Positions 36,431 to 45,722 of a stretch of DNA of 64,000 nt are shown here, one piece after another. Origin of the DNA: Flavobacteriaceae bacterium (GTDB taxonomy: Bacteria; Bacteroidota; Bacteroidia; Flavobacteriales; Flavobacteriaceae); assembly GCA_016744415.1 (NCBI GenBank), contig JADGEL010000001.1:496001-560000 (forward strand). Reading direction: 5' to 3'. Position 1 is the stretch's first letter, and each line of letters opens with the position of its first letter. A program made the translations under genes and the position numbers. The notes beneath the pieces were generated by a model. It was not told the DNA's origin. It saw only the letters and a list, made by a program, of their open reading frames with translations, and made no database searches.

Positions 36431-38689
36431 CTATTTCTTAGCAGCATAAAGCTCTAATAAACTAATTGTAGCTTTAATCAAGTCTTCCGTTTCTAACAAA
36501 ATACTAAAGTATAGTGTTGTGTTTTTCGGGCTCGATTCTGTAGTTCTTGTTCTTTCTACTTGAATCTGAGCAAACTCTGAAACTGTTTTTAACAAGGCTT
36601 GTTTTTCTTCTAACAATTCAGATATTTGATCAAAAGCACGTAAGTCAAAAGCAGCTCTTGTTTTTGTAAATAGTGCACATAATTCTTTATCTATTTTTTT
36701 TAATTCTTTTGATTGATTTACCTTGAGCCCTTTATGATTATTATTAATATGCTTATGACTCACTTTAGAAATAAACCCAACAGACTGAGCAATATCTTGT
36801 AAATCTCCCATCACTTGCATGTAAAAAGTACTTGCATTAACTGAGGTTTCATCTAAATTTTTGATAAAGTAGAATATGTTGTTTTGCAAATCTTCAATTT
36901 CATCTTCTAATTTAAGTACTGTTTTTCTACCTTTTTTAAGTAATGCTAAATCTTGATTAATCAGTCCGTTAATAGTGCTTTCATTAATCTTGCTTACACG
37001 TTTTAATACCTTAGAAATAGTATCAGCACTTTCTTCAATTACCCCTTGTACAGATTTGCTTTCGGCTCTAATCAAACTATCTTCTGTTCTTGCATCTTTC
37101 TTTTTATTAATATGTCTTATTGAGTTGCGCACTAATAAAAAGACAGCGACTAACAATAAGATAGGAATCATTACTTCCTTATTCCAATTAATTAAAAATG
37201 CGGCAATTGCTGCAGCAATAAACGCTGTTATCGCAGTTCCAAACCAACCACCAATTACATTTAATACACCAGCAACTCTATACACAGCACTTTCGCTACC
37301 CCAAGCTCTATCTGCCAAAGAGGTACCCATGGCAACCATAAATGTTACATAAGTTGTAGAAAGAGGCAATTTGTATGAAGTCGCAATTGAAATTAGCACT
37401 CCAGCAACCATCAGGTTAACCGCAGCACGAACCATATCAAAAGCTGGTAATTCATGTGTTTTGCCTTGCATTAATTCTATTACAGGCTTTTCAAATTGTT
37501 CATCAGCTTTCTTTTGAAAAGATTTTGGAGTAATAATCGCTAAGTATTTTGTAGTCATCATTGCTCCTCTAACTAATCCTCTTGATAAAAAATTAGGTTG
37601 AAAACGTTCTTTTGTTTCTCCTTGAGATGATAAATCTATTGATGTTTTTAATACTTCTCTTGATTTACTAGAAAACCATAATGTTAGTACCATAATTAAA
37701 CCCGCAATAAATAACATCAATGTAGGTGTTGGTACTTTTTTACCTAAAACATCCATCATAAATTCAGTTGCTGGAACTCCTGTTCCAGTCCAAGCTTGAA
37801 AGGATTGCCACGCAGCAATTGGTACACCAATAAAGTTAACCAAATCATTCCCTGCAAATGCCAATGCCAATGCAAAAGTACCTACCCCGATGATTAGTTT
37901 GTAAATGTTCATTTTTAAGAAATTAACAAATACGTACGATAATGCTGACCAAATAACAAAACTAACTGCTACAATTGATAATACATTGTTTTCTAAAAAA
38001 TCTTTAATCGTTGATCCGTTTAAAATATCTAAGTTTTGTTTTGCAATTTCTGCTCCTTTGATTCCTTTCATCAAAATAAAGTAAACCATGGCAGTTAAGG
38101 CAACACCTCCAAATAGAGCACCAACCCATTTAGCTTTCTTTTCAAAATTAAAAGACAATAATAGTCTGGAAATATATTGTACAAGCGCACCTACAGAAAA
38201 TGCGACAACTACCGATAATAAAATTCCAAATATGATTTGAGTGGCTTTAGCAGTATTTATATATTCTGTAATAGTAGAAAAATCTCCAGTTGTAGCACTA
38301 ATTTTAATCAATGCCATTGCTACAGCTGCACCTAATAATTCAAAAACAATAGAAACCGTAGTTGATGTTGGCATCCCAAGGGTATTGAAAAAATCGAGTA
38401 GTAAAATATCGGTAATCATCACTGCCATAAAGATGACCATAATATTATCAAAATTAAACATGGCAGGAACAAAAATTCCTTTACGCGCCACCTCCATCAT
38501 CCCACTAGAAAAAATTGCCCCAAAAGCAATTCCTAAACTTGCAACAATCATAATGGTTCTAAAAGAAATTGCTTTTGATCCGATTGCAGAATTTAAAAAG
38601 TTTACTGCATCATTACTCACACCAACTATTAAGTCAGCAATTGCTAAAACCGCTAAGGCAATAACCATTAATAAGTAAATATTATCCAT
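36431..38689 (-). CDS. PiT-family inorganic phosphate transporter with C-terminal PhoU-like tail
   Basis: A 752-residue inner-membrane symporter. The two signature repeats of the family are visible: VGVSNDAVNFLNSAIGSKAIS near the N-terminus and LAFAGNDLVNFIGVPIAAWQ at about residue 275-295. There are about 12 membrane segments through residue 525. The last about 200 residues are soluble and helical (ESADTISKVLKRVSKIN, LKLEDEIEDLQNNIF) and resemble PhoU/DUF47-type helical bundles. Most PiT proteins are about 500 residues, so this is a fused form. A -7-like TATATTTA is at 38711-38718 and Pho-box-like repeats are at 38736-38754. A porin gene lies upstream on the same strand. Confidence 0.9.
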   Translation of the reverse strand: MDNIYLLMVIALAVLAIADLIVGVSNDAVNFLNSAIGSKAISFRTIMIVASLGIAFGAIFSSGMMEVARKGIFVPAMFNFDNIMVIFMAVMITDILLLDFFNTLGMPTSTTVSIVFELLGAAVAMALIKISATTGDFSTITEYINTAKATQIIFGILLSVVVAFSVGALVQYISRLLLSFNFEKKAKWVGALFGGVALTAMVYFILMKGIKGAEIAKQNLDILNGSTIKDFLENNVLSIVAVSFVIWSALSYVFVNFLKMNIYKLIIGVGTFALALAFAGNDLVNFIGVPIAAWQSFQAWTGTGVPATEFMMDVLGKKVPTPTLMLFIAGLIMVLTLWFSSKSREVLKTSIDLSSQGETKERFQPNFLSRGLVRGAMMTTKYLAIITPKSFQKKADEQFEKPVIELMQGKTHELPAFDMVRAAVNLMVAGVLISIATSYKLPLSTTYVTFMVAMGTSLADRAWGSESAVYRVAGVLNVIGGWFGTAITAFIAAAIAAFLINWNKEVMIPILLLVAVFLLVRNSIRHINKKKDARTEDSLIRAESKSVQGVIEESADTISKVLKRVSKINESTINGLINQDLALLKKGRKTVLKLEDEIEDLQNNIFYFIKNLDETSVNASTFYMQVMGDLQDIAQSVGFISKVSHKHINNNHKGLKVNQSKELKKIDKELCALFTKTRAAFDLRAFDQISELLEEKQALLKTVSEFAQIQVERTRTTESSPKNTTLYFSILLETEDLIKATISLLELYAAKK

Positions 38690-38763: not shown

Positions 38764-39960
38764 TTAAAAATGAACTTCTAATTGTAGTCTAAACATTAAG
38801 TTATCGCCTAAAGTATTAAGGGTTAAATAACTTAAATCTGATTGGATTTTTAATTTATGACCAACAAAATATTTCGAAAATCCAAGTGTATATTGATTGG
38901 TAGTATCTTTATTTTTAATATCAATTGTTGAAAACCTCCCTGTTAATTCGAAATTTTTTAGAAATAAATATCCAGACATAAGATTGACACCACTTCCTTC
39001 ATTAACAATAACACCTGTTTCAGATCCATCTGAGTTTTTTACAATAGGGTCATCGGCTTCTCTGTTAGAGTATTCGGCCATAAAGGAAAATCCTTTGTAT
39101 TTAAACATAGCATCAATAAACAACGTGTTGATATCCGTTTCATGCAAGCCTATATCGGTTTCCATATACAAGCCCCGATTACTTAAATTTCTTACGGCAT
39201 CTTTATTCATATCATAAGAAATACCTACAGCTAATTTTGGGGTTGCTTCTCTTTGCAATGAACTTCCTAAATAATCACCTTTACTTTTAAAGATTCCGAA
39301 CGGCAAAAATTCTAAACGCCCTGTATATTGATGTCCTCCTATATTTCCGGTAACAACATTTCTACCTTCACCTTGGGCAATAGATATGATCTCTCTAACA
39401 ACAAATTTATCTGATAACTTGATATGATGCCTAAGTTGAATTCCTAAATCCCTATCAATATTAAAATTAGCATTTAACAAAGACCTATCTACAAGCTGCA
39501 AATTTGCTGAAGAAATTACACGCTCTCTATTACCAGGTAGTTTGGCTTGTCCTGCCCAAAGAACAAAATTTTCATAAAAATTCCACTTTATAACAGCATC
39601 TAAAATATACCTAGAAGAGTTAGCAGTATATTTTGTTGCGCCAGAGATATCTTTATTTGACAATCCTATTTCTAATTTATATTGCAATTTTGGTGAAAAT
39701 GCAAAGCCACTAAATTTGAATCTTGCTCTTCTAATTAAAAAACTTGTATTTGCTTTACCAAACTGGTCTCCTTCATAATTCCAATTTGTAGATGACAGCA
39801 TTTGTATTCTTGGGGCAAATTTTACACTCCATGAGCTGTCCTTAGCTACATGATTTACCATGCCTTTTCCAAATTTTGTTTCGCTAATTTTTTTTGATTG
39901 GGCATTTACAAAGAGGAAAGAAAATACAAGTACAAGCGATAGTGCTTTATTAAGTTTCAT
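38764..39960 (-). CDS. Porin of the phosphate-selective OprO/OprP type
   Basis: A 398-residue outer-membrane porin from the internal Met at 39960 (MKLNKALSLVLVFSFLFVNA); the frame from 39987 would put nine residues before the signal and its start lies within the promoter core at 39982-39992. A Sec signal peptide without lipobox ends at FVNAQ. The mature part has alternating beta strands (SWSVKFAPRIQMLSS and RARFKFSGFAFSPKLQYKLEIGLS) as in OprO/P-type porins and ends LQLEVHF with a C-terminal Phe. The Arg/Lys rich constriction ladder cannot be confirmed by eye. It lies between PiT (75 nt) and the beta-helix lipoprotein, with a strong 11-bp repeat array upstream, so I infer phosphate-starvation control and a role in phosphate passage. 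Confidence 0.85.
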   Translation of the reverse strand: MKLNKALSLVLVFSFLFVNAQSKKISETKFGKGMVNHVAKDSSWSVKFAPRIQMLSSTNWNYEGDQFGKANTSFLIRRARFKFSGFAFSPKLQYKLEIGLSNKDISGATKYTANSSRYILDAVIKWNFYENFVLWAGQAKLPGNRERVISSANLQLVDRSLLNANFNIDRDLGIQLRHHIKLSDKFVVREIISIAQGEGRNVVTGNIGGHQYTGRLEFLPFGIFKSKGDYLGSSLQREATPKLAVGISYDMNKDAVRNLSNRGLYMETDIGLHETDINTLFIDAMFKYKGFSFMAEYSNREADDPIVKNSDGSETGVIVNEGSGVNLMSGYLFLKNFELTGRFSTIDIKNKDTTNQYTLGFSKYFVGHKLKIQSDLSYLTLNTLGDNLMFRLQLEVHF

Positions 39961-39981
39961 AAAAAATATTAGTTTTTGTCG

Positions 39982-40031
39982 CTGCAAATAACCAATCCTA
40001 ATGTTATCTTAATGTTAAGTTGAGGTTATTT
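39982..40031 (-). promoter_or_regulatory. Pho-box-like promoter of the porin gene
   Basis: On the minus strand, three 11-bp units with cores TTAACAT, ATAACAT and a weaker ATAACCT (plus-strand unit starts 39999, 40010, 40021) are followed by 6 nt and then GTTATTTGCAG (39982-39992). The two best units are identical over 8 bases (TAATGTTA on the plus strand). The same layout and the same 11-mer occur before the TonB-dependent receptor. The core resembles the E. coli PhoB half-site CTGTCAT in its CAT end and 11-bp period. Confidence 0.7.
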
Positions 40032-40135: not shown

Positions 40136-41329
40136 CTATTCTACAGTCCAACGTGCGCCCCAAAATGCAAAATCAGTTCCGTTTCCATTACCATCTCCTT
40201 GAATAAAATCAAGCTCTGGAAAAGACACGCCTGTATCGTTTTTAAGTTTAATATTTACATCTACAAAAGAAATGTTGATTGCGTTTGTTTTGTCTAACAA
40301 AACACCATTGCCAGTTGGATTATTAGTATCATCGCCATCCATATCAAAACCTTCGTTAAAGCCTTCTATATAAGCATTTATAATAGTCACTCTTGTACCA
40401 GCTCTCAACCTGATAGCTTCGTTACCAGTATCAGAACCCAAGCCAATAATTGTTAAGTTTTCAATTGTTGGTGCAGACCAAAATACTGGATTAGAGTTGT
40501 TTCCAATATCAGTATTATAACCATCAGCTTCTACACCTTTATCGTGCTCTGGACCATGAACAACATGTGCATTTGTGATAGTACCAACATAGCCTTCTGT
40601 CCAGTCAATTGAATCATCTTGTGCATTAACTGCAACTAAGAAATCAACATTTACTGTTCCTCCAAAAAACTCAAAACCATCATCCAATCCTTCAAACATT
40701 TCTACGTATTGCACTACCGTTGCATCACCAACACCATAAAATGAAAACCCATTATTTTCTGATTGACCATCGGCTTTACCACCAGAGTACTCAACTCTAA
40801 TATATCTCAATACGCCTGAATCATCATTAGGATTGTTGCCACCATAAGGCAATGATCCAATTTCAGATGTTGCAGTTTCTGTTCCTCCAGTAACTGAATT
40901 GATAGGTGCTTTTCCTAAAAGGATTAAGCCTCCCCAATCACCAGCTTGGGGCGAACTAGAATTTGATGTAAATACAATTGGCATATCGGCAGTACCGTTA
41001 GCAATAATTTTTGCTCCTTGCGAAATAGCAACATAAACATCAGAACCAGCAGCTAAAGCTTTAATTGTCATTCCTGCAGGAATTGTCAATGTAGTACCTT
41101 CAGTCATTACTAGCGGTCCATTTATAATGTATGAGTTATTTGCGTCTAAGGTTAAATCATCTACATAAGTACCTGATAAATTAATTTGTTGACCAATTGG
41201 TGTGTTATCTCCACCGTTATTTATTACACTATTATCATAAATGATGATATCTGCAGTGTCATCAGCTCCACAAGAATTTAATGTGATTATAACTGATAAT
41301 AAGAATAATAATTTAATTGTTGTTTTCAT
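40136..41329 (-). CDS. Beta-helix-like lipoprotein encoded with a TonB-dependent receptor
   Basis: A 397-residue lipoprotein. The signal peptide ends LITLNSCGADD with a lipobox Cys and acidic tail, so surface or outer-membrane location is expected. The body is rich in Gly, Asn, Asp and Thr and seems built of short turns of a right-handed parallel beta-helix (LTIPAGMTIKALAAG, IIANGTADMPIVFTS, LRYIRVEYSGG). It ends WGARWTVE. It is 28 nt downstream of a TonB-dependent receptor and takes the place where a SusD-type partner would be, though it is not SusD. I do not know the ligand; the Pho-like promoter of the operon suggests a phosphorus compound. Confidence 0.75.
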   Translation of the reverse strand: MKTTIKLLFLLSVIITLNSCGADDTADIIIYDNSVINNGGDNTPIGQQINLSGTYVDDLTLDANNSYIINGPLVMTEGTTLTIPAGMTIKALAAGSDVYVAISQGAKIIANGTADMPIVFTSNSSSPQAGDWGGLILLGKAPINSVTGGTETATSEIGSLPYGGNNPNDDSGVLRYIRVEYSGGKADGQSENNGFSFYGVGDATVVQYVEMFEGLDDGFEFFGGTVNVDFLVAVNAQDDSIDWTEGYVGTITNAHVVHGPEHDKGVEADGYNTDIGNNSNPVFWSAPTIENLTIIGLGSDTGNEAIRLRAGTRVTIINAYIEGFNEGFDMDGDDTNNPTGNGVLLDKTNAINISFVDVNIKLKNDTGVSFPELDFIQGDGNGNGTDFAFWGARWTVE

Positions 41330-41357: not shown

Positions 41358-44186
41358 TTAAAATTTATAGTTGAATTGTATTCCGAAGTTTATTCCTCTT
41401 TTATAGTTACTTAGTAGTACTTCATCGCCATTTTGCACTTCTCTGATGATTTGTACATCAGGGTTTAATAAATTTTTTGCGGTGAAATTGAGTTCTATGT
41501 TTTCGCCAATATGGTTTTTCCAGATAAAGTCTAGCGCAGTAAATCCTTTTTCAATTTTGTTTCCTAATTGCCCAGAACCTAAAGCATAAATTCTGTCAAA
41601 ATAATAGTTTGCCACTACATTAAAAGTTGATTTGATACTCTTTCCGAAAGTTGTGTTATAACTAACATCTGCATTTAAAATAAAAGGAGATGCTCCTTGT
41701 AATTGATCGGTAGACCTTGCAAAACTGGTACTATAAGTACCACTAATTGTGGTATACAAATCTTGTTCTGTATGCATATAAGTGGCGTTTAAACCCGCTG
41801 TTAATTTGGCTTGTTGGTCAGCATCTAAAAGAATATTCTTTCTGAGTTCTAACTCAATCCCATAAACACTTGCCTTATCGCCAGTTCTAAAATAACGCTG
41901 TGTTCCTGTAGCATCATTTGCCACTACCAAGTTTACCGGATTTTTTATTTGTTTGGCAAAACCTGCGATTGAAACTATTTGTCCACTACCCATAAACCAT
42001 TCGTACTTTAAATCGAAATTTAAGATTTCTGAATACGAAACATCCTTTACATTGGTGTATAAAACACCTTCTTGATGTCCTAATAAATCAGGGTTACCAC
42101 CAACTCTTTCAGTAACGCTTTCATAAACATAAGGTGCCATTTCTTTAAACTCTGGTGTCGAAATTGTTTGACTTGCTGAGACTCTTAAATTTTGAGAATC
42201 ATTTAGGGAATAGCGCACATTTAAATTTGGCAAATAAAAATCTTCTGTTACTTTTAACGAGCTTGGATTATTTACCAAATTAATTACATCATATTTTATT
42301 TCTTGTGTAAAATATTCTGTTCTAAAACCTGGAACGATTAACCATTTATCATTTATGTTGAATTCTGCTGAGATAAACCCACCATTTGCATCCATATTTC
42401 CGGTATATGTATTTTCAGGTAAACCGGGTCTGTTTGTTGGGCTCATCCCTGGAATTGGTCTAAATACATCGGTCTGCACCAAACTATCTATCAAAATATT
42501 TTGACTATTAAATATGGTGTTTAAATTTCTTGGATCTACGATTAAGCTATCATCAATATTTTTATACCCATAACGGATATTTTCAAAGTCTCTAGATTTT
42601 GTTCTTCCAGTATAACCAACATTTACTTTTGTGTTTTCAGTAACTTGATAGCTCATTTTAAAACGTCCATTCAATTCATCATCAGTCATTTTTTGAAAAT
42701 AACGCTGATTATCGAAAGAGTTATTTGTTAACAAAACAGGATGTGTATTTGGATCATCATCTAAAGCAAAGAAATAATCTTCTATAGAGATTCTTTTTCT
42801 ATCTGGTTCATGAGAATAGACATTGTTATAACCAATACCCCAGTCAATTTTAATTTTTTCAGTTAGTGTATGATTTCCTAATAATTGATTTACAAAAATC
42901 AAATCCTGATTAAATTGAACATTCATTTGATAAAATCCACGATCAGTATCAACCATAGATCTAGAATCTCTGTAATACCCATCGCCTTGTGTTCCATAAA
43001 AACCAACCTCATCACCAGAGCTGTTAATGAATAATGAATTAAATGAAATTTTATGGTCGTTGTTAAAACGATAAATAGCACTTCCTAACATGGTCGTGTT
43101 AGTGCTGTATTTATAACGATCGACATTAGGGAAAATCTTGTTGTAATCATTTGTATAATCAATTTCACTACCTTCATATAATGTGTAATTAGTATCAAAC
43201 GATGCCGATATAAACAAACTTAATCTAGAATTTTCTCCAATATCAAAAGACTTTCCTCCCGCTACACTAACTGCGTAAGCAATTAGTGTGCCTGCACTTA
43301 CGGGATCAACGCCATGAGAAAGAACAACTGCATAAGGGTTGCTATCATAACGATTGTAAAAACCAAAACTTCCAGTTCCTTCACTTTTTACAAAGTCACT
43401 ACCAATAGCATTCGTGTTGATTTCTGATTTTACTGAAGCTTCAAAAAAACTATTTCCTATATATTCTTTAGAAGATATGTTTACATTTCCAGCTGAAAAA
43501 TCAGCAAAGAAATGAGGGGAATAAGATTTACTTATAGATACATTTTCAATGATATCAGTTGTAAATAAATCAAGGTTAATATTTTTCTTATTAATACTAT
43601 TTGATGGTAATGTTAACCCATTCATAGTCGTATTTAAATAACGATCACCTAAACCACGGACATATATATTATTTGAACTTTCCTCTTTAGAAACTCCTGA
43701 AATTTTTGTGACCGCACCAGAAGCGTCACTCACACTTTTTTCTGACAACTCATCAGCACCAATGGATGTTTTTAGTTCAATTGCTTTCTTTTGTTCTGTC
43801 AATAAAGATTGTACGGATTCTTTTTTGGTTGTTGTTACAATTGCAACCTCATCTAAAGCAACACCTTCATCAGCTTTTAAAATGATAGGCTCTAATTGAA
43901 CCATTTCTCCTGCCACAACATTGATGTTTTCAATTTCAACAGTCTGATATCCAATAAAACTAAATACCAGTGTATATGTTCCTTCAGTTATATTAAAGGT
44001 ATAAACTCCACCAAAGTCAGAGGTGGCTCCGGTTTCGGTTCCTTTTATAAATGCATTTGCAAAAGGCAGTGGTTCATTGTTCATTTCACCATCTAATATT
44101 TTTCCAGTAATACTTCCTTTTTCTTGCGCATACATTGCACTATTGATTAATGTAAAAAGGACTACTAGAATTTTAATTAATTTCAT
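41358..44186 (-). CDS. TonB-dependent outer-membrane receptor, phosphate-regulon candidate
   Basis: A 942-residue receptor. A Sec signal peptide (MKLIKILVVLFTLINSAMYAQ) is followed by a carboxypeptidase-regulatory-like domain (about 25-110, GSITGKILDGEMNNEPLPFANAFIKGT). The plug comes next (DASGAVTKISGVSKEESSNNIYVRGLGDRYLNTTMNG), then a 22-strand-type barrel with late motifs RYSLNDSQNLRVSASQTISTPEF and the aromatic end NFGIQFNYKF. The sequence is longer than a simple siderophore receptor and has no visible SusD partner. It leads the operon with the beta-helix lipoprotein. The upstream 11-bp repeats imply phosphate-starvation induction, so uptake of a phosphate-containing ligand is my inference. 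Confidence 0.9.
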   Translation of the reverse strand: MKLIKILVVLFTLINSAMYAQEKGSITGKILDGEMNNEPLPFANAFIKGTETGATSDFGGVYTFNITEGTYTLVFSFIGYQTVEIENINVVAGEMVQLEPIILKADEGVALDEVAIVTTTKKESVQSLLTEQKKAIELKTSIGADELSEKSVSDASGAVTKISGVSKEESSNNIYVRGLGDRYLNTTMNGLTLPSNSINKKNINLDLFTTDIIENVSISKSYSPHFFADFSAGNVNISSKEYIGNSFFEASVKSEINTNAIGSDFVKSEGTGSFGFYNRYDSNPYAVVLSHGVDPVSAGTLIAYAVSVAGGKSFDIGENSRLSLFISASFDTNYTLYEGSEIDYTNDYNKIFPNVDRYKYSTNTTMLGSAIYRFNNDHKISFNSLFINSSGDEVGFYGTQGDGYYRDSRSMVDTDRGFYQMNVQFNQDLIFVNQLLGNHTLTEKIKIDWGIGYNNVYSHEPDRKRISIEDYFFALDDDPNTHPVLLTNNSFDNQRYFQKMTDDELNGRFKMSYQVTENTKVNVGYTGRTKSRDFENIRYGYKNIDDSLIVDPRNLNTIFNSQNILIDSLVQTDVFRPIPGMSPTNRPGLPENTYTGNMDANGGFISAEFNINDKWLIVPGFRTEYFTQEIKYDVINLVNNPSSLKVTEDFYLPNLNVRYSLNDSQNLRVSASQTISTPEFKEMAPYVYESVTERVGGNPDLLGHQEGVLYTNVKDVSYSEILNFDLKYEWFMGSGQIVSIAGFAKQIKNPVNLVVANDATGTQRYFRTGDKASVYGIELELRKNILLDADQQAKLTAGLNATYMHTEQDLYTTISGTYSTSFARSTDQLQGASPFILNADVSYNTTFGKSIKSTFNVVANYYFDRIYALGSGQLGNKIEKGFTALDFIWKNHIGENIELNFTAKNLLNPDVQIIREVQNGDEVLLSNYKRGINFGIQFNYKF

Positions 44187-44243: not shown

Positions 44244-44326
44244 CTGCAAATAACATGGGCAGATGTAAAGTGAATGTTAACGACTCATTAAAATAATGTG
44301 ATTGTTATGTTTCTTTTATGTTAAGA
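44244..44326 (-). promoter_or_regulatory. Pho-box-like promoter of the TonB receptor operon
   Basis: Six 11-bp-phased units start at plus positions 44261, 44272, 44283, 44294, 44305 and 44316. Read on the minus strand their cores are TTAACAT or close variants in five of six; the unit at 44283 is poor. After 6 nt comes GTTATTTGCAG (44244-44254), the same 11-mer at the same spacing as in the porin promoter. No -33 TTG is present, as expected if an activator replaces it. Confidence 0.7.
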
Positions 44327-44381: not shown

Positions 44382-45722
44382 ATGAATTGGGAACAACTCC
44401 TATCATTGAAACGCTATGGCGATACTGAAATCAGATTAAGAAAAAATCAAGACGAAACTCGTTTGGGCTTTGAAGTAGATTACGACCGTATTATCTTTTC
44501 AGATTCTTTTAGAAGCTTGCAAGATAAAACACAAGTAGTACCATTATCTAAAACCGATTTTGTGCATACCCGATTAACTCATAGTTTAGAGGTAAGTGTT
44601 GTAGCGAGATCTCTAGGTAGAATTATCGGAAAAAAATTGATCGAAAAATATCCAGACTTAAAAGAAAAAGGATATCAAGCCAATGATTTTGGAGCTATCG
44701 TTGCTGCTGCAGCTTTAGCACACGATATTGGAAACCCTCCTTTTGGACACTCTGGAGAAAAAGCAATTGGCGAATATTTTAAAACAGGAAACGGACAACA
44801 GTTTAAAAAAGAATTGACCGATAAACAATGGCAAGATTTAATCGATTTTGAAGGGAATGCCAATGGATTTAAAATTTTAACCGAAAACAGAGAAGGAGTT
44901 AAGGGAGGCTTACGATTGTCTTACGCCACATTAGGTGCTTTTATGAAATACCCAAAAGAATCACTTCCAAAAAAACCGAGCAGTCATATTGTAGATAAAA
45001 AATACGGTGTCTTTCAATCAGAAGTAGAAGCATTTAAAGATGTTGTTGAAACCTTAGGCTTACCAACTCTTAGAGAAAATAAAGATTTAGCTTTTCAAAG
45101 ACACCCTTTGGCATTTTTAGTTGAAGCTGCTGATGATATTTGTTATACAATCATTGATTTTGAAGACGGAATAAACCTTGGGTTGATAGAAGAAGAATTT
45201 GCCTTAGAGTATCTTATCAATTTGGTTAGAGATAACATCAATACAGAAAAATATTACCAATTAAAATCTAAAAAAGACAGAGTCAGTTATTTGAGAGCTC
45301 TGGCTATTGGAAATTTAATAAATGAAGCCGCAACCATTTTTTTAGAAAATGAAACTCTTATTTTAAATGGTGATTATAATAATTCTTTGTTAGATAAGTG
45401 TAAGTATGAAGCACAGGTTAACGATATTATTAAAATAAGTATTGAGCGTATTTATAGAAGCAAAGAAGTTGTTGAAAAAGAAGTTGCAGGCTACAGAGTA
45501 TTGTCCGATTTATTAGACGTATTTATTACCGCAATTAATAACACGTATAATGGAACCGCATCTAATTATGATAAATTGATCTTGCAATTTTTGCCAGAAA
45601 ACTACAGAATACAAAGAGAATACTTATACGATCGAATAAGTATTGCTTGTAGCTTTCTCTCTATTATGTCTGATAGTTACGCAATCTTAATACACAAAAA
45701 GATTAAAGGAGAGGTTTTTTAA
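44382..45722 (+). CDS. dgt: Deoxyguanosinetriphosphate triphosphohydrolase (dNTPase)
   Basis: A 446-residue HD-superfamily enzyme that hydrolyses dGTP or other dNTPs to nucleoside and triphosphate. The metal-binding HD motif is in AALAHDIGNPPFGHSGEKAIG, preceded by the His in DFVHTRLTHSLEVS; the later Asp is in EAADDICYTIIDFEDG. The length fits the type 1 dNTPases. The start at 44382 gives MNWEQLLSLKRYGD, typical of the family. A near -7 TATCTTG is at 44355-44361. The gene shares its spacer with the receptor promoter but reads the other way. Confidence 0.93.
   Translation: MNWEQLLSLKRYGDTEIRLRKNQDETRLGFEVDYDRIIFSDSFRSLQDKTQVVPLSKTDFVHTRLTHSLEVSVVARSLGRIIGKKLIEKYPDLKEKGYQANDFGAIVAAAALAHDIGNPPFGHSGEKAIGEYFKTGNGQQFKKELTDKQWQDLIDFEGNANGFKILTENREGVKGGLRLSYATLGAFMKYPKESLPKKPSSHIVDKKYGVFQSEVEAFKDVVETLGLPTLRENKDLAFQRHPLAFLVEAADDICYTIIDFEDGINLGLIEEEFALEYLINLVRDNINTEKYYQLKSKKDRVSYLRALAIGNLINEAATIFLENETLILNGDYNNSLLDKCKYEAQVNDIIKISIERIYRSKEVVEKEVAGYRVLSDLLDVFITAINNTYNGTASNYDKLILQFLPENYRIQREYLYDRISIACSFLSIMSDSYAILIHKKIKGEVF

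Follow-up and report, generated by a model that had tools for sequence, protein, structure and literature searches.

The TonB-dependent receptor gene in the analysed Flavobacteriaceae DNA (a stretch of 64,000 nucleotides, hereafter the window) was found to be preceded on the minus strand by six TTAACAT-like half-sites with an exact 11-bp step (44324-44263), behind which a -7-like element follows. We assign a probability of ca. 0.88 to the reading that this arrangement is a PHO operator and promoter of three boxes, putatively bound by PhoB, which would make up for the missing -33 contact at a promoter with a degenerate -7. The array is kept in many flavobacteria and is most likely a switch through which PhoB, the regulator of the phosphate-starvation response, would activate genes for phosphate uptake.

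The 7-bp cores start at minus-strand positions 44324, 44313, 44302, 44291, 44280, and 44269, and the 11-mers containing them read, in order, TTAACAT-AAAA, GAAACAT-AACA, ATCACAT-TATT, TTAATGA-GTCG, TTAACAT-TCAC, and TTTACAT-CTGC. Counted from the -7-like element, half-sites 1 (TTAACAT, 44318-44324), 2 (GAAACAT, 44307-44313), 3 (ATCACAT, 44296-44302), 4 (TTAATGA, 44285-44291), 5 (TTAACAT, 44274-44280), and 6 (TTTACAT, 44263-44269), all on the minus strand, occupy the registers -72, -61, -50, -39, -28, and -17, respectively. Five of the six end in CAT, the exception being the fourth. The last 11-mer is followed by 6 nt and then by GTTATTTGCAG (44244-44254, minus strand), within which TATTTGC begins 10 nt past half-site 6. 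The first-pass annotation had described six units in 11-bp phase with plus-strand starts from 44261 to 44316, five units sharing a core, and a gap of 6 nt before GTTATTTGCAG. This description was confirmed: the starts are those of the 11-mers that hold the cores, the deviating unit is the fourth, and both positions and spacing are correct.

Bacteroidota promoters have the consensus TAnnTTTG at -7 and TTTG at -33. The receptor promoter lacks a -33 TTTG element, and half-site 5 sits roughly where that element would be expected. The earlier idea of a shortened -7 was set aside, as the element can also be read as a TAnnTTTG of normal length with a degenerate TA, the second base of which was T in 96% of 73 aligned regions. 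In place of this TA, the window has GT and most of the aligned regions have T-T; the TTTG was fixed by the alignment anchor. As in a PHO box, direct repeats of about seven conserved and four variable bases recur at an 11-bp step, and the proximal half-site lies about 10 nt before the -10/-7 and overlaps the -35/-33, with the start site being predicted.

The receptor gene (41358-44186, minus strand) encodes CarbopepD_reg_2, Plug, and beta-barrel domains. Directly 3' of it lies a lipoprotein-like gene without a Pfam match (40136-41329, minus strand), which was kept next to the receptor gene in 79 of 80 loci. A Porin_O_P family porin gene (38764-39960) and a gene for a PHO4/PiT-type phosphate transporter (36431-38689) are encoded on the same strand, and a dGTP triphosphohydrolase gene (44382-45722, plus strand) is divergent from the receptor gene. 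The ATG at 39960 was adopted as the porin start because the alternative TTG at 39987 would fall within the promoter.

This second promoter, 4.2 kb from that of the receptor, reads TTAACAT-N4-ATAACAT-N8-GTTATTTGCAG on the minus strand. Its array (40001-40029) consists of ATAACCT (40029-40023), TTAACAT (40018-40012), and ATAACAT (40007-40001), and the spacing to GTTATTTGCAG (39982-39992) is identical to that in the receptor promoter. When a matrix was built from the receptor promoters of other genomes, the receptor and porin promoters of the window scored 32.6 and 24.9 bits, respectively, and the only further site above 9 bits in the 64 kb scored 10.2 bits. The exact architecture occurred at just these two places in the window's own genome (3.13-Mb assembly). 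Allowing up to three mismatches gave 19 places against 11 in the reversed control, and a wider pattern with up to two mismatches gave 14 against 6. These inexact matches are near the reversed-control counts and are little informative; 15 of 17 inexact places with up to three mismatches fell within reading frames. Separately, CAGCGACAAAAACTAA or a similar stretch was seen directly 3' of the -7 in porin promoters of many genera (39969-39984, minus strand, in the window, and many of L020-L027 and L064-L138); it may belong to the start region or to a leader.

Six units scored against TTAACAT at an 11-bp step reached 34 of 42 at the receptor array, a partly circular result since the consensus was drawn from the array itself, and the next values on the same strand (30, 29, and 27) were shifted registers of that array. 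When the window was simulated 60 times with a first-order Markov model, the best scores ranged from 25 to 29, and in the real window all other periods between 7 and 15 stayed at or below 29. A pattern of three units, with at most two mismatches, matched five times in the window against 5.08 expected; its only match without a mismatch was the receptor array, and its only match with one mismatch was the porin promoter. The receptor array was absent from the output of Tandem Repeats Finder, which contained an 11-bp repeat at 39995-40017, inside the porin promoter. Conservation in relatives was the decisive test.

For this comparison, the window and 80 named loci holding the receptor gene provided 81 upstream regions; the closest named receptor relatives, at 85% identity, were found in a Flavobacteriaceae MAG and a Urechidicola MAG. 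The regions were aligned solely on the anchor T[AC]TTTG[CT], which was present in 73 of them, and the eight in which no such motif lay 85 nt or more from the beginning of the stretch were left out. Mean matches to TTAACAT in the 73 regions were 5.5, 4.8, 3.2, 5.3, 5.6, and 5.2 of 7 at -72, -61, -50, -39, -28, and -17, respectively, and the highest off-phase mean was 3.96. Five registers stood out and -50 did not: this weak register did not exceed some off-phase positions, yet its column -47 was A in 95%. The T, A, A, and C of half-site 1 each reached at least 0.96 in this -7-anchored alignment. Leave-one-out scoring was carried out with a matrix limited to the two proximal half-sites plus the -7 element. 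It covered -330 to +720 relative to the start of the match, as certain receptor matches set in ahead of the true start. Scores above 14 bits were obtained in 75 of the 80 receptor loci; L077, L079, L100, L105, and L108 were missed, the last barely (13.6 bits). The receptor loci contained 122 sites above 14 bits against one in Markov sequence, although these loci are related to one another and the counts are not independent events. These results show that the array is not due to chance and is conserved across flavobacterial receptor loci. In L113, L136, and L142, a further array promoter was noticed ca. 4.2 kb after the receptor start, in front of a protein of 134-135 aa that resembles the receptor N-terminal domain.

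Whole-genome evidence came from pattern searches of the own genome and of relatives. The first exact pattern was found at 11 places in 10 of 299 family genomes and a wider exact pattern at 37 places in 33 of 219, with no reversed-control match in either search. The strict architecture is rare, most of the family genomes searched having no strict match. Thirty-five of the 39 distinct exact places, including the two of the window, were classed, and all of them precede genes of three kinds: 22 porin genes, ten genes whose products match the TonB receptor, and three lipoprotein-like genes. Some of these assignments rest on weak matches with 27-34% identity, and among the ten receptor-matching proteins, one is 135 aa long and shares only a stretch with the receptor. 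Among the named loci, the matrix exceeded 12 bits before 32 of 42 porin genes and gave no match before 79 lipoprotein genes, and the array preceded 4 of 48 PiT genes.

PstS was encoded in 11 of 149 family genomes and was absent from the window's own genome. The array stood before a porin or porin-like gene directly upstream of pstS at 8 of 12 pstS places; in one of them (L221), the porin-like frame does not match the porin of the window. An additional array was located ca. 30-40 nt before the pstS frame at three of the eight, and the remaining 4 of the 12 places had no array. In L219 (1-18001), the genes for the receptor, the lipoprotein, the porin, PstS with four frames behind it, and PiT form one cluster. 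The pst block between porin and PiT was either lost in the lineage of the window or gained in that of L219. When 346 genomes of the class were searched, 332 of them outside the family, the sole exact non-family match (L258, 1501-1534) lay before a PstS domain (PF12849, 152.6 bits). We gave this match little weight: the open frame continues through the site, so that the gene start is uncertain and 1542 was chosen, and the neighbouring frame that follows had no Pfam match.

Phosphatase genes were examined in the same way. Thirty-two PhoX-family places and more than 30 alkaline-phosphatase places were found, and 30 loci of each were checked. No array preceded the gene in any of the 30 PhoX-family loci or the 30 alkaline-phosphatase loci; the latter contained one matrix match above 10, on the opposite strand and beyond the end of the gene. 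Four phased units without the -7 scored at most 16.5 at PhoX loci and 17.5 at alkaline-phosphatase loci (L285), compared with a range of 15.5-20 at receptor promoters and of 11.5-16 in simulated sequence. Individual loci thus come within the receptor range, in a scan that took in both strands and a longer stretch. A wider regulon with phosphatases among its members was unsupported (no array in front of the gene in 30 loci of either set). The first-pass annotation had proposed to look for enrichment of the repeat before other phosphate genes, and this expectation was borne out for porin and pst genes and failed for PhoX-family and alkaline-phosphatase genes. As for a PHO box, the genes behind the array are those of phosphate acquisition (porin, receptor, pst, and 4 of 48 PiT genes), phosphatases excepted. 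The comparison points to a narrow promoter class for phosphate uptake, which need not be the whole Pho regulon.

The half-site pair without the -7 was also tried as a test for Pho promoters and was found in 72 of 249 genomes, at 94 places altogether, against 12 in the reversed control. It was dropped as it is not Pho-specific and is common before other genes. None of the 30 of these places that were viewed by the first residues of the neighbouring frames resembled the phosphate cluster, and at least two of the remaining 64 are porin promoters of the exact-pattern set. Another conserved element, TTAACATT-N3-TTAACATT followed by a TAGTTACATTTGGGTAATTAATTAATTAAA-like sequence, was observed near 1501 in L034, L037, L038, L044, L057, and L060, with variants in L035, L056, and L062, and mostly precedes a protein family of ca. 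180 aa (..GSIIATLIAITPYLFYLYESVP). A plain TTAACATT pair was seen also before repeat-containing secreted proteins (L046, L050, and L051). Away from the phosphate cluster, a single exact TTAACATT-N3-TTAACATT pair was seen in the own genome (L289, ca. 1550-1570; G000 C4:597849-597867), located between frames that by eye are TRAP-transporter-like and TonB-receptor-like, and without the T(A/C)TTTGC spacing.

Four proteins of the own genome carry an OmpR-type DNA-binding domain: a PhoB-like protein encoded beside a PhoR-like kinase (L029), two proteins that best fit RprY, and one without a receiver domain. The three regulators that were scanned all fell below the curated cut-offs of the models tried; for the PhoB-like protein, the PhoB model was the best fit, yet the score was 206 bits against a cut-off of 296. 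By best match and linkage, we regard it and the kinase as a putative PhoB/PhoR pair, the regulators expected in an organism with PHO boxes. The PhoB-like protein shares 36% identity with E. coli PhoB, and its recognition helix (RTIDVHIRKLR) is almost the same as RTVDVHIRRLR of E. coli PhoB. W184, G185, and V190 of E. coli PhoB, which are polymerase-contact residues (PMC3348028), are kept, and E191 and D192, likewise at the polymerase contact, are both replaced by G. A PhoB-like gene was present in 138 of 149 family genomes. The phoB-phoR genes are divergent across the array in 18 of the 80 loci, with PhoB proteins 74-76% identical to that of the own genome. In 30 further phoB loci, the divergent gene matched the receptor or the lipoprotein in nine, and the array was directed toward it in seven. 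The suggestion of the first-pass annotation that a PhoB-type activator binds the 11-bp repeats covering the -33 is supported by this comparative evidence, namely the conserved array, its porin copy, the arrays of porin-pstS loci, the phoB-phoR divergence, and the PhoB-like recognition helix.

Based on these observations, the promoter is proposed to work as described below. Under phosphate starvation, phosphorylated PhoB (L029) would bind head to tail, one monomer per half-site, so that the six TTAAC-core half-sites in 11-bp phase would make up three tandem PHO boxes, the number of dimers being predicted from the layout. The two proximal half-sites would cover the -33 region, where PhoB may substitute for the absent -33 contact and recruit RNA polymerase carrying the Bacteroidota primary sigma factor, which it would presumably contact. 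The -7 with its degenerate TA (TAnnTTTG read as GTTATTTG) fits a promoter that would depend on an activator. The receptor array would drive the receptor and lipoprotein genes, and the shorter, equally spaced porin array would drive the porin gene and probably the PiT gene behind it. A stronger version, which we hold only tentatively and at somewhat less than even odds, is that a lineage-specific class is involved, in which a rigid six-register array and an altered PhoB surface (GG at 191-192) fully replace -33 recognition in a narrow module. In this same tentative version, the module would comprise the TonB receptor, the lipoprotein, the porin, and Pst where present, apart from phosphatase genes.

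It is improbable that another OmpR-family regulator, for instance one of the RprY type, binds the array in response to a signal other than phosphate such as envelope stress. Regulators of this family often bind direct repeats, and two of those in the own genome fit RprY best. The authors of a study on Riemerella anatipestifer PhoP also noted a strong similarity between its motif and the one bound by E. coli ArcA (PMC9603813). However, the recognition helices of the two RprY-like proteins differ (RSMDVFISKLR and RSMDVYIAKLR), the regulator divergent across the array in the 18 loci mentioned above is phoB-phoR, and the genes behind the array encode porins, the receptor, the lipoprotein, and Pst proteins.

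Even less likely is the possibility that a PhoB site here represses, or that it serves the divergent dGTPase or phoBR genes and not the receptor. The array does lie within a divergent intergenic region, and in Riemerella, PhoP binds in front of its own operon, between -156 and -121 (PMC9603813). In contrast, the spacing to the -7-like element is fixed at 10 nt on the receptor side, the porin copies read toward the porin, and no matrix match was obtained on the dGTPase side (0 of 55 genes) or on the phoB side (0 of 18 genes) of the named loci. Service of the dGTPase gene by the array was rejected on this count, and the gene is outside the system. Autoregulation of phoB through the array was likewise not found, as no array was present on the phoB side in the 30 further loci or in the 18. 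Chance periodicity in AT-rich intergenic DNA, with which the chance-level count of the relaxed three-unit pattern in the window would agree, has a negligible probability because the exact registers are conserved across the named loci and reversed controls gave no match in 299 and 219 genomes.

The preferred reading, a PhoB-dependent PHO promoter, would give a searchable promoter model for a large bacterial family and would tie a TonB receptor without an assigned role, together with its lipoprotein, to phosphate uptake. The cooperation of PhoB with the Bacteroidota sigma factor would also become directly testable on one short promoter.

The first-pass annotation knew of no description of such a layout for this group. 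No PHO-box layout for Flavobacteriaceae (array, phase, or -7 spacing) was found in searches of open-access literature, a scope outside which most subscription papers lie. A similar gene set is that of the Flavobacterium johnsoniae phoBR / PUSIV cluster, which resembles that of the window by gene listing in having a TonB transporter, a lipoprotein, and OprP. Its 'PhoBR operon' list includes phoBR, the TonB transporter Fjoh_0545, the FII lipoprotein Fjoh_0546, and OprP (PMC8115612). The first expression column, taken here to be log2 change on Pi depletion, gives 8.02 for Fjoh_0545 and 9.91 for Fjoh_0546, a strong rise, and OprP of this cluster was not raised (-1.3, p 0.25) (PMC8115612). The lipoprotein-like gene of the window recalls the Pi-induced FII lipoprotein by position alone, and the F. 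johnsoniae transporter carries pf14905, a Pfam domain absent from the window receptor. Neither 'pho box' nor 'promoter' is used in the main text of that paper (PMC8115612). PhoB of Bacteroides fragilis bound a 512-bp fragment of the pstC promoter, for which the accessible text of the report gives no box sequence (PMC3547664).

Closer parallels exist at the level of the DNA motif. Riemerella belongs to the order Flavobacteriales. The most conserved letters of the DAP-seq motif of R. anatipestifer PhoP are TTTAACA (PMC9603813, Fig. 2 legend), and the study lists an EMSA with a TonB-receptor promoter and stresses redox and virulence targets; its accessible text sets out no array, phase, or -7 spacing. 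This motif agrees with the core of the array and lends indirect support to the predicted binding by phosphorylated PhoB; the two regulators are likened by motif only. In cyanobacteria, the SphR box CTTAACCT has 8 bp and a 3-bp linker and occurs in at least three tandem copies (PMC1906773). The likeness to the E. coli half-site CTGTCAT noted in the first-pass annotation should be corrected in that the core is closer to SphR CTTAACCT (PMC1906773) and to Riemerella TTTAACA (PMC9603813). SphR boxes have a near-identical core and step to the array reported here; they belong to another phylum and sigma factor, and the present array differs in its six registers and its constant distance of 10 nt to the -7.

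With the -10 of the E. coli phoA promoter where we take it to be, the step from half-site to -10 is 10 nt, the same as here. It has been stated as a rule that the -10 follows the proximal half-site after 10 nt (PMC1906773), the E. coli PHO box overlaps the -35 region (PMC3348028), and its half-sites have seven conserved and four less conserved bases in head-to-tail order (PMC4415409). The receptor promoter resembles that of phoA in its head-to-tail half-sites, 10-nt step, and overlap with the -35/-33; by analogy, its half-sites would lie on one face of the helix with the proximal pair over the -35/-33, a layout equal to that of the E. coli class. It differs from phoA in having TTAACAT instead of CTGTCAT, six registers, and a Bacteroidota -7 instead of a sigma-70 -10, and PhoB of the window's genome differs from E. 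coli PhoB in having GG at residues 191-192. Taken together, these comparisons suggest that the array is a lineage variant of the known PHO-box kind.
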